From: Micrococcus terreus
Lineage (GTDB): Bacteria > Actinomycetota > Actinomycetes > Actinomycetales > Micrococcaceae
Direction: 5' to 3'
Assembly: GCF_900116905.1 (NCBI RefSeq)
Contig: NZ_FPCG01000002.1
Location: 62,001-126,000, forward strand
DNA: 64,000 nucleotides
The position numbers were made by a program, and so were the translations under genes. Position 1 is the first letter of the stretch. Every line of letters begins with the position of its first letter. The notes under the pieces were generated by a model. The model made no database searches, had not been told where the DNA came from, and saw only the letters and a list, made by a program, of their open reading frames with translations. Of the stretch, positions 15,138-63,243 are shown piece by piece.

Positions 15138-15143
15138 TAGGTT
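15138..15143 (+). promoter_or_regulatory. -10 box TAGGTT of the OsmC-globin gene
   Basis: TAGGTT is followed by 7 nt and the GTG start at 15151, the leaderless spacing. The same 7 nt (GGAGGGT) also resembles a ribosome site, so either mode is possible. Confidence 0.45.
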
Positions 15144-15150
15144 GGAGGGT

Positions 15151-16203
15151 GTGAACCACAGCTTCTCCCTGCGCGCAGAATGGACCGGGAACCGCGGCAC
15201 CGGCACCTCCGGCTACAAGGACTACGACCGTGACCTGGTGATCCAGGCTGAGGGCCCCGGTGAGCTTCAGGGCTCGGCTGCCCGAGCCTTCCACGGGGCC
15301 GAGTCACGGTGGAATCCGGAGCAGCTGCTGCTGGCCGCCCTCACCGAATGCCACCTGCTCTCCTACCTGCACAGCGCCACCCAGGCGGGCGTCGTCGTGA
15401 CCGGCCTGGCCTGCCGCGCCGAGGTGACCTTGGAGACCACCTCGGACGGTGCCGGGCAGATCACCTCCGCCGTGCTGCGGCCTGAGGTGTGGCTGGCCGA
15501 GGAGTCCCAGCGGGAGCAGGCCGATGGCCTCCATCCGCAGGCTCATGAGCGGTGCTTCATCGCCCGGTCGGTGAACTTTCCGGTGACGATCGAACCAGAG
15601 GCGCCACGGCAGATGCCGCATCTGCCGGAGTTCAGCAGCCGACTCGGCGCACCGATCGCCGTCCTGCGGCCCCGTGAGGCCAAGCGCCCGTCCCAGGTGA
15701 CGGGGCTGGAGAACCGGCCGGTCTCCCCCGGTGCGGCCCACACCCCGCCGTTCACCCGGACCTCTGAGACGGGTGCGTCGCCGGCAGCCGCCACTGCGGC
15801 TCCCCCGGCCGCATCCGCTCCGGCAGAGCCGCAGTCCACCTTCTACGATCAGGTCGGCGGACATGAGACCTTCGCGAAGCTGTGCCGGGTGTTCTACGAA
15901 GGCGTGGCACAGGATCCGCTGCTCAAGCCCATGTACCCGGAGGAGGACCTGGGACCGGCTGAGGAGCGGCTGCTGCTGTTCCTGGAGCAGTACTGGGGCG
16001 GCCCGCGGACCTACAGCGAGCAGCGGGGCCATCCGCGGCTGCGCATGCGCCACATGCCGTACACCATCGACTTCGAGGCACGGGACGCCTGGCTGCGCCA
16101 CATGCGCACGGCCGTGGACTCCCTGGAGCTGGCCCCCCTGCACGAGCACATGCTCTGGGACTATCTCGAGCGCGCGGCCCACTCCATGGTCAACTCCGCC
16201 TGA
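15151..16203 (+). CDS. OsmC-like peroxidase fused to group II truncated haemoglobin
   Basis: 350 residues in one continuous frame. Residues 1-150 form an OsmC/Ohr-type domain with both redox cysteines, Cys67 ([10 protein letters not shown]) and Cys135 ([10 protein letters not shown]); this family reduces organic hydroperoxides. A Pro/Ala-rich linker (about 152-229) leads to residues 231-350, a truncated haemoglobin of the trHbO/GlbO type: [16 protein letters not shown] (281-285), and RLRMRHMPY with the haem-ligating His at 301. Separately known functions are peroxide removal and O2/NO/peroxide chemistry, so the fusion probably couples haem and thiol peroxide defence in the cytoplasm (inference). 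A GTG start at 15151 with GGAGG is chosen. Confidence 0.9.
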
Positions 16204-18778: not shown

Positions 18779-18841
18779 ATCACCCCATCGTCACCCTGCC
18801 CCCTTCCTGTGAACCGCCTCACAGGCGCGCCTGTCATGGTC

Positions 18842-18847
18842 TAGCGT
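18842..18847 (+). promoter_or_regulatory. -10 box TAGCGT of the amidohydrolase/DUF1704/ATP-grasp operon
   Basis: TAGCGT is followed by 7 nt and the ATG at 18855. If this is the -10 element, the operon message starts at or next to its first start codon. Confidence 0.5.
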
Positions 18848-18854
18848 GATCACC

Positions 18855-19733
18855 ATGGACACGCACACTGCAGATCAGCTTTCCCAGCATGGTCGAGACC
18901 GCGAGGACGGGGCCGCTCCGTTCCGCGCCGTCGGGCCCTGGGCCGACTCCAGAGCCGACGCTGCCAGCCAGGTGGTCTTCACGGCGGTGCACACCGGTCA
19001 TGACCTGCGCGACGAAGTCCGTGAGCTCATGATCCTGGACGAGGACACCCGGCTGCGCGAGGAGGATCCCTTCACCGATCGTCTGGGCGCTGGGGTCGGA
19101 TCCGGACTGGTGATGAACCGCTCTCGGTTCGAGGTGGACGTGAACCGTCCGCGGGCCACCTCCGTCTATCAGACCCCGGACGAGTGCTGGGGACTGGACG
19201 TGTGGCGGGACGGACGACTGCCGGATGACATCGCCGAACGCAGCCGCGAGGTCCACGATGCCTGGTTCGCCGAGCTCGGCCGGCGCTTGGACGTGCTGGC
19301 CGCCCGCGGTCCGTTCGTGGTCTTCGACATCCACTCCTACAACCACTACCGGGACGGACAGGACCAGCCGCCCGCACCCCAGGACGGCAACCCGGACATC
19401 AACGTCGGCACCGGCTCCCTGGATCGTGAACCCTGGATCCCGGTCGTGGATGCCTTCATGGAGGCCATGGGGTCGCCCACGGTGGCGTCCACCGGTCGTT
19501 CCCTGGACGTCCGTGAGAACGTGCGGTTCTGGGGCCAGAACCAGGCCCGGTGGATCCATCGGCGCTACCCGGACACCGCCTGCGTCCTGGCCCTGGAGTT
19601 CAAGAAGACCTGGATGGACGAATGGACCGGTCAGCCGGACCAGGAGCACATGGAGCAGCTGGCCCAGATCCTGGCCTCCACCGTGCCCGCGGTGACCGAG
19701 GCGCTGAAGCAGGTGAAGGTGCCCACGCCATGA
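18855..19733 (+). CDS. N-formylglutamate amidohydrolase-family hydrolase
   Basis: 292 residues from the ATG at 18855 (a GTG at 18846 is in frame but overlaps the -10 box). FGase-type motifs: AVHTGHDLRDE (about 47-57) with a conserved His, NRSRFEVDVNRPR (about 88-100), and FDIHSYNHYRDG (about 159-170) with a probable zinc-binding Asp-x-His. The family hydrolyses N-formylglutamate or related N-acyl amino acids, but with no hut genes nearby a histidine role is unlikely. The stop overlaps the next ATG (ATGA). It is the first gene of a three-gene operon and may process a metabolite or peptide linked to the ATP-grasp ligase. Confidence 0.88.
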   Translation: MDTHTADQLSQHGRDREDGAAPFRAVGPWADSRADAASQVVFTAVHTGHDLRDEVRELMILDEDTRLREEDPFTDRLGAGVGSGLVMNRSRFEVDVNRPRATSVYQTPDECWGLDVWRDGRLPDDIAERSREVHDAWFAELGRRLDVLAARGPFVVFDIHSYNHYRDGQDQPPAPQDGNPDINVGTGSLDREPWIPVVDAFMEAMGSPTVASTGRSLDVRENVRFWGQNQARWIHRRYPDTACVLALEFKKTWMDEWTGQPDQEHMEQLAQILASTVPAVTEALKQVKVPTP

Positions 19734-20935
19734 CCGCGAAGACACCGCGAACCACACCAGATGAACCTGCCCCGTCCACCAGCGGGGGCATCTCCCTGCG
19801 TGACCGTGCCATCGACCATGAGCTGGCCCTGGTCTCCCAGAGCTTCCGCTTCCTGCTGGACGTCACCCCGGTGAACGTCGAGCCTGCCCGGGAGGAGTTC
19901 CTCTCCAGCGGTCGACTCCCCGAGTTCGTCTACCGAGACCTCGAGGACGACCCCGATGTGCTGCGCCGGGTCCTCAAGGACATCCCCATCCAGGAGGTCG
20001 ACGACGCCGTCCTGGGCACCCTGCTGCGCAACAAGCACCGTGAACTCTCCCTGCAGATCGATCTGCTCGAGTCCCGGGACACCGAGGCCTTCATGCCGCT
20101 GAGCATCGAGCTCTACGGCGCCATCACCCCCTCCCTGCGCCATACCGCCGAACAGATCCTCGAGTCCGTCACGGTGCCCAAGTCCACCAAGGACAGCAGC
20201 TACCGGGCCGAGGAGTTCCTGAAGCTGGCCTTCGAGGAGATCGGTCACTACCGCGAACAGGACCCGGACATCGAGATGCACGCCGAGATCCGTGAAGACG
20301 TCTCCGGCGTGATGGTCTCCGGCGAGTCCCTGCTGATGGGACCGTCCTCCAAGGTGCAGAAGGTGCGTGCCGCTGCGCTGCTGCACCATGAGGTCGGCAC
20401 ACACCTGGTCACCCATGTCAACGGTTCGGCCCAGCCGGTGAAGATCATGGGCAGCGGCCTGGCCGGCTATGACGAGACCCAGGAGGGACTGGCGGTGCTG
20501 GCCGAGGTCGCCTGTGGGGGGCTGACCGCCTTCCGGCTGCGTCAGCTTGCCGCCCGCGTGCTCACCGTGCATCGCATGGTCTCCGGAGCGAACTTCGCCG
20601 AGGCCCACCAGGCGCTGCTGGAGGACGGCATCCCCGCCTCCTCGGCCTTCACCACCACCATGCGTGCCTTCCGCTCCGGTGGCATGACCAAGGACGCCAT
20701 CTATCTGCGCGGCATGCTCGAGCTGCTCGAGCACCTCAAGGACGGAGGTTCCCTGGACCTGCTGCTGCTGGGCAAGTTCGCCCTGGAGGACCTGCCGCTG
20801 GTCACCGACCTGCAGGAGCGCGGCGTCCTGGAGCCGCCCCGGCTCACCCCGCGGTGGTTGGAGGACGAGGATTCCGCGGCCCGTCTCGGACGCGCCGCCG
20901 CCCTGGGCGATCCGGCGCTGCTGGTCGCCTCCTGA
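19730..20935 (+). CDS. DUF1704 / QEGLA-motif (MATCAP-type) metallopeptidase homologue
   Basis: 401 residues from the ATG at 19730, overlapping the previous stop. This family is labelled flavohaemoglobin-expression-modulating QEGLA protein (TIGR02421/DUF1704). It shows the metal motif HEVGTH (His220, Glu221, His225, H-E-x-x-x-H) and QEGLA at 251-255 (Glu252, likely third ligand), which match the active site of eukaryotic MATCAP tubulin carboxypeptidases. A cytoplasmic carboxypeptidase acting on C-terminal Glu/Tyr-type bonds is therefore plausible, but the bacterial substrate is unknown to me. It is placed between an amidohydrolase and an ATP-grasp ligase, so peptide-bond cleavage and formation are encoded side by side. 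Confidence 0.9.
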   Translation: MTAKTPRTTPDEPAPSTSGGISLRDRAIDHELALVSQSFRFLLDVTPVNVEPAREEFLSSGRLPEFVYRDLEDDPDVLRRVLKDIPIQEVDDAVLGTLLRNKHRELSLQIDLLESRDTEAFMPLSIELYGAITPSLRHTAEQILESVTVPKSTKDSSYRAEEFLKLAFEEIGHYREQDPDIEMHAEIREDVSGVMVSGESLLMGPSSKVQKVRAAALLHHEVGTHLVTHVNGSAQPVKIMGSGLAGYDETQEGLAVLAEVACGGLTAFRLRQLAARVLTVHRMVSGANFAEAHQALLEDGIPASSAFTTTMRAFRSGGMTKDAIYLRGMLELLEHLKDGGSLDLLLLGKFALEDLPLVTDLQERGVLEPPRLTPRWLEDEDSAARLGRAAALGDPALLVAS

Positions 20936-20989
20936 CCTCACGCACCACCTCATCCAGACCTTCCACACCCCGTCCCCGAAGGAGACCCC

Positions 20990-22033
20990 ATGAAGATCGG
21001 ATTCGTCGTCAACGACGTCGCCACCGAGAAGCACACCTACACCACCACCCGGCTGGCCATGGCCGCCAGCCAGGCTGGCCACGAAGTCTGGCTCACCGGC
21101 ACCGGTGACTTTGCCTACGAACCCGACGGCACCCTGTCCGTCCGGGCGGCCGGCGCCGGTGACAAGAACTACCGTTCCCTGGAGCGGTACCTCGAGGACG
21201 TGCAGAAGCCGGAGTCCAGCAAACAGGTCTCGGTGCATGACTTCGACGTGGTGATGCTGCGCAACGACCCGGCCGATGACGCCTCCGACCGCCCGTGGGC
21301 ACCCACCGCCGGAGTGGCCTTCGGACAGCTGATCGCCTCCACGGGCGTCCTGGTCGTCAACGACCCGCACACGCTGGCCAACGCCCTCTCCAAGGCCTAC
21401 TTCCAGCACTTCCCCGAGGCTGTTCGCCCCAAGACACTCATCTCCCGTGATGAGGCCATGATCTCGGATTTCGTGGACGAGATGGGCGGCAAGGCCGTGC
21501 TCAAGCCCCTGCAGGGCTCAGGCGGCTCCGGGGTGTTCCTGGTGGACCGCAAGGAGTCCCCCAACCTGAACCAGATCGTCGAGGCGATCGCCCGTGACGG
21601 CTACGTGGTGGCCCAGGAATATCTGCCGGAGGCCAAGAACGGCGATGTCCGCATGTTCCTGATGAACGGACGGCCACTGCAGGTGGACGGCGAGTACGCA
21701 GCCTTCCGCCGCCGCAACGCCGAGGGGGATGTCCGCTCGAACATGTCCGCCGGCGGCAAGGCCGAGAAGGCCAAGGTCACCGACGAGATGCTGCACATGG
21801 TCGAGCTGGTCCGGCCCAAACTGGTCGCCGACGGCATGTTCCTGGTCGGCCTGGACATCGTGGGCGACAAGCTCATGGAGGTCAACGTCTTCTCCCCCGG
21901 CGGCCTGGGCTCCTGCCAGGAACTGTACGGGGTGGACTTCGCTCCGGCCATCATCGCCGACCTCGAGCGCAAGGTCGATGTCCGCCAGCACTACTCGGCC
22001 CGCCTGAGCAACACGGACCTGGTGACCATCTGA
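20990..22033 (+). CDS. Glutathione-synthetase-like ATP-grasp ligase
   Basis: 347 residues. An N-terminal GshB-like pre-ATP-grasp domain (MKIGFVVNDVATEKHTYTTT, about 1-135) precedes the ATP-grasp domain, with the nucleotide loop KPLQGSGGSGVFLV (about 166-179), the adenine-binding VAQEYLP (about 205-211), and metal ligands in GLDIVGDKLMEVNVFSP (about 285-301, Asp and Glu-x-Asn). ATP-grasp enzymes join a carboxylate to an amine through an acyl phosphate. As mycothiol, not glutathione, is the usual thiol in this phylum, a role other than glutathione synthesis is likely. The ATG at 20990 has AAGGAGA upstream. It ends the operon 54 bp after DUF1704, and a strong terminator follows. Confidence 0.9.
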   Translation: MKIGFVVNDVATEKHTYTTTRLAMAASQAGHEVWLTGTGDFAYEPDGTLSVRAAGAGDKNYRSLERYLEDVQKPESSKQVSVHDFDVVMLRNDPADDASDRPWAPTAGVAFGQLIASTGVLVVNDPHTLANALSKAYFQHFPEAVRPKTLISRDEAMISDFVDEMGGKAVLKPLQGSGGSGVFLVDRKESPNLNQIVEAIARDGYVVAQEYLPEAKNGDVRMFLMNGRPLQVDGEYAAFRRRNAEGDVRSNMSAGGKAEKAKVTDEMLHMVELVRPKLVADGMFLVGLDIVGDKLMEVNVFSPGGLGSCQELYGVDFAPAIIADLERKVDVRQHYSARLSNTDLVTI

Positions 22034-22057
22034 GGTCTGCGCCAAGCCAGCACGACG

Positions 22058-22094
22058 ACGCCCCCGCACCTTCCCTGTGAAGGTGCGGGGGCGT
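22058..22094 (+). terminator. Hairpin terminator after the ATP-grasp gene (bidirectional)
   Basis: Arms 22058-22072 and 22080-22094, 15 bp perfect, 7-nt loop. It lies between convergent ATP-grasp and ettA genes; a GACGACG core overlaps the left arm. Confidence 0.9.
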
Positions 22095-22128
22095 TCGCAG
22101 TCCAGGCAAGCTGGACTGACCGAGGGGA

Positions 22129-60492: not shown

Positions 60493-63243
60493 GTGAGCGC
60501 AGCTGAAGAAAGCTCCCATATCCTCAGTGGCCTGACGAATCAGATGCCCGACAAGGATCCGCAGGAGACCGCCGAATGGATCGAGTCCTTCGACGGCCTG
60601 GTGGAGTCGCGTGGCACCGAGCGCGCTGAATACATCATGCGCAGCCTGCTGCAGCGGGCCGGCACCAAGTCGGTGGGCGTGCCCATGGTCACCACCACCG
60701 ACTACGTCAACACCATCCCGGTGGACCAGGAACCCGAGTTCCCGGGCGACGAGGAGATGGAGCGCCGCTACCGCAACTACTTGCGGTGGAACGCGGCGAT
60801 GATCGTCCAGCGCGCCCAGCGCAAGGGTGTGGAGGTCGGCGGCCACATCTCCTCCTACGCCGGTCAGTCCACCCTGTACGAAGTGGGCCTGAACCACTTC
60901 TTCCGCGGAGCCGACCACCCCGGCGGCGGCGACCAGATCTTCTTCCAGGGGCACTCCTCCCCCGGCAACTACGCCCGTGCCTTCCTGGAGGGACGCCTGA
61001 CCGAGGAGGAGCTGGACGGGTTCCGCCAGGAGAAGTCCAAGGCCCCGCACGGCCTGCCCTCCTACCCGCACCCGCGGATGAAGCCGGACTTCTGGCAGTT
61101 CCCCACCGTGTCCATGGGCCTGGGGCCCTCCAATGCCATCCTGCAGGCCCAGTTCAACCGGTACCTGCACAACCGCGGCATCAAGGACACCTCGCAGCAG
61201 CACGTGTGGGCGTTCCTGGGCGACGGCGAGATGGACGAGCCGGAGTCGCGCGGCGCACTGCACATCGCCGCCAACGACAAGCTGGACAACCTCACGTTCG
61301 TGGTCAACTGCAACCTGCAGCGCCTGGACGGACCGGTGCGCGGCAACGGCAAGATCATCCAGGAGCTGGAGGCCTACTTCCGCGGCGCCGGCTGGAACGT
61401 CATCAAGGTCCTGTGGGGCCGCGAATGGGACCAGCTGCTGGAGAAGGACGACGACGGCGAGCTCGTGCGCATCATGAACGAGACCCTGGACGGCGACTAC
61501 CAGACGTACAAGGCCGAGGACGGCGGATTCGTCCGCGAGCACTTCTTCGGCCGCTCCTCCACCACCAAGGAGATGGTGGCGGAGATGAGCGACGACGAGA
61601 TCTGGGGCCTCAAGCGCGGCGGCCACGACTACAAGAAGGTCTACGCCGCCTACAAGGCCGCCATGGAGTACAAGGGCAAGCCCACCGTCATCCTGGCCCA
61701 GACCATCAAGGGCTACGGGCTGGGCACCCACTTCGAAGGCCGCAACGCCACCCACCAGATGAAGAAGCTGACGGTGGAGGACGTGAAGATGTTCCGCGAC
61801 CGTCACCGCATCCCGGTCACGGACGAGCAGATCGAGAACGATCCGTACAACGTGCCCTACTACCACCCGGGCCCGGATGCACCGGAGATCAAGTACATGA
61901 TGGAGCGGCGCAAGGAGCTGGGCGGATTCCTGCCCGAGCGCCGGTCCACGTACTCCAAGCTGCCGCTGCCCCCGGAGTCTGCCTACAAGCAGGCCAAGAA
62001 GGGCTCGGGCAAGCAGCTGGCCGCCACCACCATGGCGTTCGTGCGTCTGCTCAAGGACCTGCTCCGGGACAAGAACATCGGCCAGCGGATCGTGCCGATC
62101 ATCCCGGACGAGGCCCGCACCTTCGGCATGGACTCGTTCTTCCCCACCGCGAAGATCTACAACCCCAAGGGACAGAACTACCTCTCCGTGGACCGGGACC
62201 TGTTCCTGTCCTACAAGGAGTCCCCGCAGGGCCAGCTCTTCCATGTGGGCATCAACGAGTCCGGTGCCACCTCGGCGTTCAACGCCGCCGGCACCTCGTA
62301 CGCCACCCACGGCGAGCTGATGATCCCGGTGTACATCTTCTACTCGATGTTCGGCTTCCAGCGCACCGGGGACACCTTCTGGGCCGCAGCGGACCAGATG
62401 GCCCGCGGGTTCGTGATCGGCGCGACCGCCGGACGGACCACCCTGACCGGTGAGGGCACCCAGCACGCGGACGGGCACTCCCCGATCCTGGCCGCCACCA
62501 ACCCGGCCGTGAAGCACTACGACCCGGCGTTCGGCTACGAGATCGCCCACATCGTCCGCCAGGGCCTGGAGGACATGTACGGCGACCACGACCGCGGCGA
62601 GGACGTGCGCAACGTCATGTACTACCTCACCGTGTACAACGAGCCGATCCAGCACCCGGCCGAGCCGGAGGACCTGGACGTGGAGGGCCTACTCAAGGGC
62701 ATCTACAAGTACCAGGACGGTCAGGGCGAGGGACCCAAGGTCCAGCTGATGGGCTCCGGTGTCTCCCTGCCGTGGGCGATCGAGGCCCAGCAGATCCTGG
62801 CCGAGGACTGGAACGTCTCGGCGGACGTCTGGTCGGTGACCAGCTGGAACGAGCTGCGCCGCGAGGCGGTGGCGGCCGAGCGGAAGGGCTTCATGAACCC
62901 CTCCGAGGAGGCCCCGGTCCCGTACATCACCACCAAGCTGGCCGGCGCTGAAGGACCGATCGTGGCCACCACGGACTACATGACCATGGTCCCGGACCAG
63001 ATCCGCCAGTACATCCCGAACCGCTACGCCACCCTGGGTGCCGACGACTTCGGGTTCGCGGACACCCGCGCAGCGGCACGCCGTCACTTCGCCATCGACT
63101 CCCACTCGATGGTGGTGCGTGCCCTCCAGATGCTGGAGCAGGAGGAGAAGGTCGAGAAGGGCACCGCGGCGAAGGCCTTCGAGAAGTACCGGATCGACGA
63201 CGTCTCCGCCGGCACCACCGGCAATGCCGGAGGCGACGCGTAA
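60493..63243 (+). CDS. aceE: Pyruvate dehydrogenase E1 component (homodimeric)
   Basis: TPP-dependent decarboxylase of the pyruvate dehydrogenase complex, linking glycolysis to the TCA cycle. 916 residues in the single-chain form typical of actinobacteria. The TPP/Mg motif [17 protein letters not shown] ... [17 protein letters not shown] lies near 249-290, with [18 protein letters not shown] near 115-132, YADGHSP-like [15 protein letters not shown] near 656-670, and the C-terminal transketolase-type domain after about 720. The GTG at 60493 is preceded by AGAGAGG. Transcribed alone, with a perfect hairpin downstream and a PucR-like regulator next. Confidence 0.96.

Follow-up and report, generated by a model that had tools for sequence, protein, structure and literature searches.

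We describe here a three-gene operon of the actinobacterium Micrococcus terreus (NCBI RefSeq assembly GCF_900116905.1), found in a window of 64,000 nucleotides that spans positions 62,001 to 126,000 of contig NZ_FPCG01000002.1. The operon encodes an FGase-family amidohydrolase, a metallopeptidase of the MATCAP family and a GshB-like ATP-grasp ligase, all three with their catalytic motifs. The genes are near-obligately linked, the two hydrolases are fused in some bacteria, and the ligase is not a standard glutathione synthetase. Our tentative reading is that the three genes form a self-contained mobile module in which one enzyme forms, and two others cleave, the same peptide bond or bonds of glutamyl type. 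We found no paper describing the trio in the open literature.

A genome-wide scan yielded 80 loci from named genomes, all actinobacterial, and 78 of these contain all three genes; the two incomplete loci are L101, which is cut by a contig end, and L104, which has a partial peptidase match and no ligase. The order amidohydrolase-peptidase-ligase on one strand is kept in 92 of 94 distinct loci, with the two exceptions being Photobacterium fusions, and the genes are tightly packed: the first junction is an NTGA overlap in 80 of the 94 loci and the second a 4-bp overlap in 61. Six of 198 Micrococcales genomes encode the peptidase, and those six alone encode a ligase above the cut-off of the NCBIfam subfamily PRK12458, a coincidence with a chance of about 1e−11 on the assumption of independent genomes, which they are not. 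When 396 genomes of the phylum are considered, 7/7 with a strong PRK12458 match have the peptidase adjacent. The inter-copy distances of the genes correlate as well (r of 0.88 to 0.92, 0/999 permutations). This near-constant linkage bears out the functional unit put forward in an earlier reading of the window from its letters alone (the original prediction), which had named co-occurrence of the three families across the Micrococcaceae as a check and scarce co-occurrence as a refutation; the genes turned out to be together in nearly every case. Within that family the module is narrowly spread: seven of the eight members of the genus have it, the eighth lacks both peptidase and ligase, and none of the sampled Micrococcaceae outside the genus has it.

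Alphaproteobacterial plasmids, from Sinorhizobium, Mesorhizobium, Aminobacter and Shinella, carry the trio with its gene order unchanged (S. meliloti pSymB and S. medicae are among the operon loci), and so does one plasmid labelled Roseateles (a betaproteobacterium). When the flanks of 25 loci were compared, no fourth gene recurred, nor did a transporter, tailoring or catabolic gene; the only other flank cluster consists of ABC-type ATPases, in six of the 25 loci when counted regardless of position. From the linkage, the plasmid spread and the absence of a fourth gene we therefore conclude that the module comprises three genes only and is patchy and mobile. Its spread (6/198 genomes in the order and 7/8 in the genus) is as expected for a horizontally moving cassette. 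Six further genomes of the phylum encode divergent DUF1704 proteins, 26 to 39% identical in the matching region and in several cases with HE[VA]YVH, and no operon was detected around these copies in the stretch examined. At four actinobacterial loci (L017, L019, L024 and L038), the DUF1704 proteins have HE[VA]YVH for HEVGTH and represent a different subfamily.

The peptidase was originally predicted to be MATCAP-like, and sequence profile and predicted fold agree on this. It matches Pfam PF08014 (MATCAP, formerly DUF1704) with an E-value of 8.5e−82 and 275.5 bits against a cut-off of 27, and a profile that we built matches human MATCAP with an E-value of 7.2e−18. Its predicted structure has a predicted local distance difference test (pLDDT) score of 94, and human MATCAP is its only PDB fold match at an E-value of ≤0.001, with the M32 carboxypeptidases as the next, weaker matches; the global template modeling (TM) scores against human MATCAP are modest (0.51/0.60). 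This and the other structure predictions used alignments built without plasmid sequences. We checked for loss of HEVGTH in close relatives and found HExGxH retained in essentially all operon copies (HE[VIM]G[TV]H in 115/116). The QEGLA motif aligns with TEEGLA of human MATCAP, and its glutamate, E252, is invariant in our alignments and near-invariant across the 116 operon copies; E252 is likely the third metal ligand. A KDxxYL motif is also kept in the operon peptidases. The window peptidase falls under the cut-off of the QEGLA hypothetical equivalog TIGR02421 (300.5 versus 338.65 bits), which the rhizobial (353 bits) and Photobacterium (448 bits) peptidase partners pass. Eukaryotic members of the MATCAP family strip the C-terminal tyrosine and then glutamate, and also polyglutamate, residue by residue (PMC10499314). 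As a separate observation, long-form QEGLA proteins from rhizobia and two actinobacteria carry a conserved extra N-terminal domain of ~230 amino acids, which matches FGase only weakly (hhalign probability of 5.6%).

The ligase matches Pfam GSH-S_ATP (E-value of 6.3e−51) and belongs to the NCBIfam subfamily NF009110/PRK12458, named “glutathione synthetase” (468.6 bits versus a cut-off of 408). It falls under the cut-offs of both glutathione-synthase equivalogs, TIGR01380 (199.5 of 299 bits) and PRK05246 (212.9 of 272 bits), which our positive control, an actinobacterial GshB-like locus (L133), passes, and also under that of RimK (TIGR00768; 85.2 versus 143.4 bits). The top PDB match of the predicted structure (pLDDT of 88.9) is E. 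coli GshB (1gsa; TM scores of 0.75/0.83), followed by RimK. Among solved structures the ligase stands closest to GshB and RimK, and not to the tubulin tyrosine ligase (TTL), which the original prediction had cited as one of the ATP-grasp ligases that form such bonds. The catalytic columns R91, K135, K172, R221 and N299 are retained. NVTSPT is present in E. coli GshB and in 3/3 actinobacterial GshBs examined but in 0/116 operon ligases, 114 of which have N-[VA]-x-[ST]-PGG in its place; SPGG thus occupies the site of SPT in GshB, where the aligned RimK has SPG. The replacement of SPT by SPGG argues against a standard GshB and has no bearing on the size of the substrate. In a phylogenetic tree the actinobacterial and rhizobial operon ligases form one clade (88/91) apart from GshB. 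By these comparisons the operon ligase is a GshB paralogue and a non-standard GshB.

The amidohydrolase matches Pfam FGase (PF05013; E-value of 4.6e−22), and H49, E72-E73-D74, D98, N100-R101, D161 and H163 (numbered from the GTG start) are invariant in an alignment of 35 sequences. In the related carboxypeptidase/aspartoacylase fold, an NR pair of this kind holds the substrate by its free carboxylate. Since the D-x-N-R segment is kept, the amidohydrolase may likewise cut at a C-terminal acyl-amino-acid bond. A search of NCBIfam with the window amidohydrolase gave no match, including to the HutG equivalog TIGR02017, and the rhizobial amidohydrolase reaches only 22 of the 279 bits of the HutG model; the FGase profile found no meaningful match among PDB sequences. 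In two Photobacterium records the amidohydrolase and the MATCAP peptidase are fused into one protein of ~660 amino acids, encoded after the ligase.

What could such a set of enzymes do? The trio travels as a fixed set through distant bacteria and therefore probably makes and unmakes one bond. We hypothesize that the acceptor is a glutamyl peptide or the acidic tail of a protein or peptide, and that the ATP-grasp ligase would convert its C-terminal carboxylate to an acyl phosphate and then attach an amino acid there. The MATCAP-family peptidase would take off C-terminal residues singly, and the FGase-family amidohydrolase would cleave an acyl-glutamate-type amide, so that the three enzymes together could set or reset the state of the C terminus of their substrate, much as RimK/RimB do, or the ligases and carboxypeptidases of tubulin tails. 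This scheme presumes the direction of the reactions, a shared substrate, its glutamyl nature and reversibility. Of the reversible ligase/carboxypeptidase cycle originally proposed for the operon, the functional unit, the non-standard GshB and the MATCAP-like peptidase have held; the interpretation as a whole is partly supported, and the cycle itself is a proposal.

Several observations weigh against a shared bond that is made and unmade. The steps catalyzed by the ligase and the hydrolases may just as well follow one another in a pathway as run in opposite directions. Since GshB acts on a free dipeptide, the substrate is no less likely to be a small molecule than a protein tail. The operon contains no candidate substrate gene in actinobacteria or rhizobia. 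Solitary PRK12458 ligases are found on some Ensifer plasmids, and a Vibrio has fused hydrolases with a damaged amidohydrolase motif and no adjacent ligase, possibly a case of decay or of a changed role. Part of the signal in the correlated distances reflects shared ancestry, and the Photobacterium ligase groups weakly nearer to GshB, on long branches.

There is a real, if doubtful, possibility that the module is a small-peptide pathway, in which the ligase makes a γ-glutamyl or other short peptide (a thiol, an osmolyte or a storage compound) and no protein tag, and both hydrolases mature a precursor or recycle the product. The nearest solved relative of the ligase, GshB, joins a free dipeptide and glycine, and the three enzymes make up the whole module, without a gene for a substrate. 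The dipeptide could be of γ-glutamyl type, supplied by the YbdK/GCS2-type carboxylate-amine ligase that the host genome encodes once, away from the operon. The putative partner genes of Photobacterium damselae respond strongly to salinity: in transcriptome sequencing at 1% versus 3% NaCl, adjacent tags annotated as GshB and QEGLA were up 38.4-fold and 27.5-fold, and RimK was up 52-fold (PMC10308900). We infer from the adjacent numbers, the annotation and the other Photobacterium loci that these tags are the homologous operon; their joint induction also counts in favor of our main reading. What speaks against a small-peptide pathway is that the MATCAP enzymes of known function work on protein tails (PMC10499314) and that no transporter or tailoring gene recurs beside the module. 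A protein substrate could be modified as in a bacterial counterpart of the tubulin code, with the ligase writing and the MATCAP/FGase pair erasing residues on an acidic protein tail in response to osmolarity; in this specific form we consider the idea unlikely. In Pseudomonas, the Rlo system, which has an ATP-grasp protein and polyglutamate-cleaving peptidases, governs survival at low osmolarity (PMC12239564). The induction in P. damselae and the Rlo system thus suggest a low-osmolarity theme, and such a link of the module is reasonable but unproven.

We give little credence to the view that the operon makes and breaks glutathione, with an ordinary glutathione synthetase as its ligase. The NCBI name of the PRK12458 subfamily, the top PDB match to E. 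coli GshB and the preserved catalytic columns favor it, but the ligase fails both equivalog models that the L133 control passes, and NVTSPT is missing from every operon ligase; we therefore rejected standard glutathione synthesis as the leading explanation. Moreover, one operon-carrying genome (G171) has a second, weaker ligase-profile match that is GshB-like by score, and the host encodes MshC and therefore has mycothiol, which gives a basis to the earlier argument that a mycothiol organism needs no GshB. It seems similarly improbable that the operon is a catabolic or detoxification cassette, in which the hydrolases break down an acyl-glutamate or a peptide that is taken up or damaged and the ligase re-uses or protects one product. 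Such a cassette would fit the two hydrolases per ligase, their fusion, the patchy mobile distribution and the plasmid location, but no transporter or catabolic gene is conserved alongside, and conservation is highest in the ligase (67% versus 57% mean identity), which would be odd for an accessory step.

The three co-directional genes lie where the original prediction had placed them, with open reading frames and Pfam matches in agreement (Table 1). The ATGA overlap of genes 1 and 2 (positions 19730 to 19733) and the short gap before gene 3, which is 54 nucleotides long, are also as described there, and the proposed TAGCGT promoter gains from comparison with relatives: GGTCTAnnnT stands directly before the ATG of gene 1 in 6/7 operon copies from the genus. 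The TAnnnT −10 element within it reads GGTCTAGCGT in the window and GGTCTACGTT or GGTCTACCTT in relatives. Because this conserved element lies directly 5′ of it, ATG 18855 is the likelier start of gene 1, with GTG 18846 as the alternative, and the spacing of TAnnnT to the ATG suggests a leaderless transcript. A sigma-70 scan found no consensus −35 upstream of the operon. Sigma-70 and terminator scans returned nothing for the operon, and the −10 element and the hairpin downstream of gene 3 came from other analyses. The single strong terminator proposed for the operon is real as a hairpin (−38.3 kcal/mol, z of −5.9) and lacks a U-tract, which is why it is missing from the output of the terminator scan; it is the probable shared terminator of the operon and the convergent ABC-F gene. 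We also considered control by a CRP/GlxR-type regulator, as an exact palindrome, TGTGAACCGCCTCACA, lies upstream of the operon, and exact sites of this type occur seven times in the genome versus none for a reversed control. Relatives lack the palindrome in front of their operon copies, so we set such control aside, and a regulatory role of this site is unproven.

Table 1 Features of the operon, its surroundings and related loci
Feature	Position	Strand	Remarks
CRP/GlxR-type exact palindrome	18808..18823	.	centre ~39 bp before ATG 18855
TAGCGT, −10-like element for a leaderless transcript	18842..18847	+	conserved GGTCTAnnnT setting; suggested transcript start at or near ATG 18855
FGase-family zinc amidohydrolase (gene 1)	18855..19733	+	292 aa from ATG; 295 aa from alternative GTG 18846
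MATCAP/DUF1704 gluzincin peptidase (gene 2)	19730..20935	+	401 aa from ATG
HEVGTH metal-binding and catalytic motif	20387..20404	+	residues 220-225
QEGLA motif	20480..20494	+	residues 251-255
GshB-like ATP-grasp ligase (gene 3)	20990..22033	+	347 aa
Strong hairpin	22056..22097	+	between the operon and the convergent ABC-F gene
OsmC::Bac_globin fusion	15142-16203; L034:3322-4434		window and congener
Long-form QEGLA N-terminal domain	L119:6296-7000, L120:6257-7000, L028:9802-10500 (minus strand)		no Pfam family
Solitary PRK12458 ligase, Ensifer plasmid	L122:7001-8047		near L,D-transpeptidase and GNAT gene; without both hydrolases
Fused amidohydrolase::QEGLA, Vibrio sp. HDW18	L166:5965-7956		DIHSYN histidine lost (DMYAYN); no ligase adjacent
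DUF413/MaoP-like genes	L125:4400-4867, L166:5530-5889, L167:4465-4869		directly upstream of ligase and/or fused hydrolase

The loci in Vibrionaceae have an additional neighbor, a DUF413/MaoP-like gene accompanied by a divergent LysR gene. The MaoP-like proteins have an acidic C-terminal tail in 3/3 copies, ending in ...EDSDDGGSDDDIDY, ...DYEDEDVDNDLDI and ...DDEPSLTEED. Because of this tail and the position of the gene directly upstream, the MaoP-like protein is the one concrete candidate for a protein substrate in Vibrionaceae. The LysR-maoP pair is an old gammaproteobacterial neighborhood (hdfR-maoP of E. coli), and the maoP-like gene beside the module may therefore be incidental. Elsewhere in the window, one open reading frame fuses an OsmC domain (E-value of 6.4e−16) to a truncated hemoglobin (Bac_globin; E-value of 4.3e−33), and this fusion is conserved in a congener.

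Peptidases of the MATCAP family have been known only from eukaryotic tubulin processing, and their bacterial relatives are named “flavohemoglobin expression-modulating,” a label that explains nothing. Our work showed that a large bacterial subfamily of them is inseparable from an FGase amidohydrolase, to which it can even be fused, and from a GshB/RimK-type ligase. Three vague annotations thereby become one testable three-enzyme system, and where an organism makes mycothiol, a PRK12458 match named “glutathione synthetase” is probably misnamed.

How does the module compare with known systems? Similar in layout are RimK/RimB and RloC/RloA of Pseudomonas, in which an ATP-grasp ligase of the GshB/RimK group is likewise encoded with a peptidase; RimK and RimB act on the same glutamate tail of ribosomal protein S6, and RloA cleaves polyglutamate (PMC12239564). 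Their peptidases are retropepsin-type aspartic enzymes, whereas the module has a gluzincin and an FGase-type amidohydrolase; the window ligase has a full GshB N-terminal domain and scores below the RimK cut-off, and the module lacks a ribosomal or membrane partner. With GshB itself the module ligase shares the fold, the domain order and the ATP-grasp catalytic residues, but it fails the equivalogs, has PGG for PT[CG] and has two hydrolases as linked partners. The amidohydrolase resembles the HutG-type N-formylglutamate deformylases in its Pfam family and in its intact metal and NR carboxylate-type motifs, without an NCBIfam HutG match and outside any histidine-degradation locus. The bacteria that carry the module are not known to have tubulin. 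The MATCAP/TMCP tubulin carboxypeptidases are homologous to the module peptidase, share HExxxH and EEGLA/QEGLA with it and, like it, in principle have an ATP-grasp-type ligase as counterpart. In eukaryotes the genes for these carboxypeptidases and for the opposing TTL/TTLL ligases are separate, whereas in the module peptidase and ligase are neighbors and the ligase is GshB-like and not matched to TTL.

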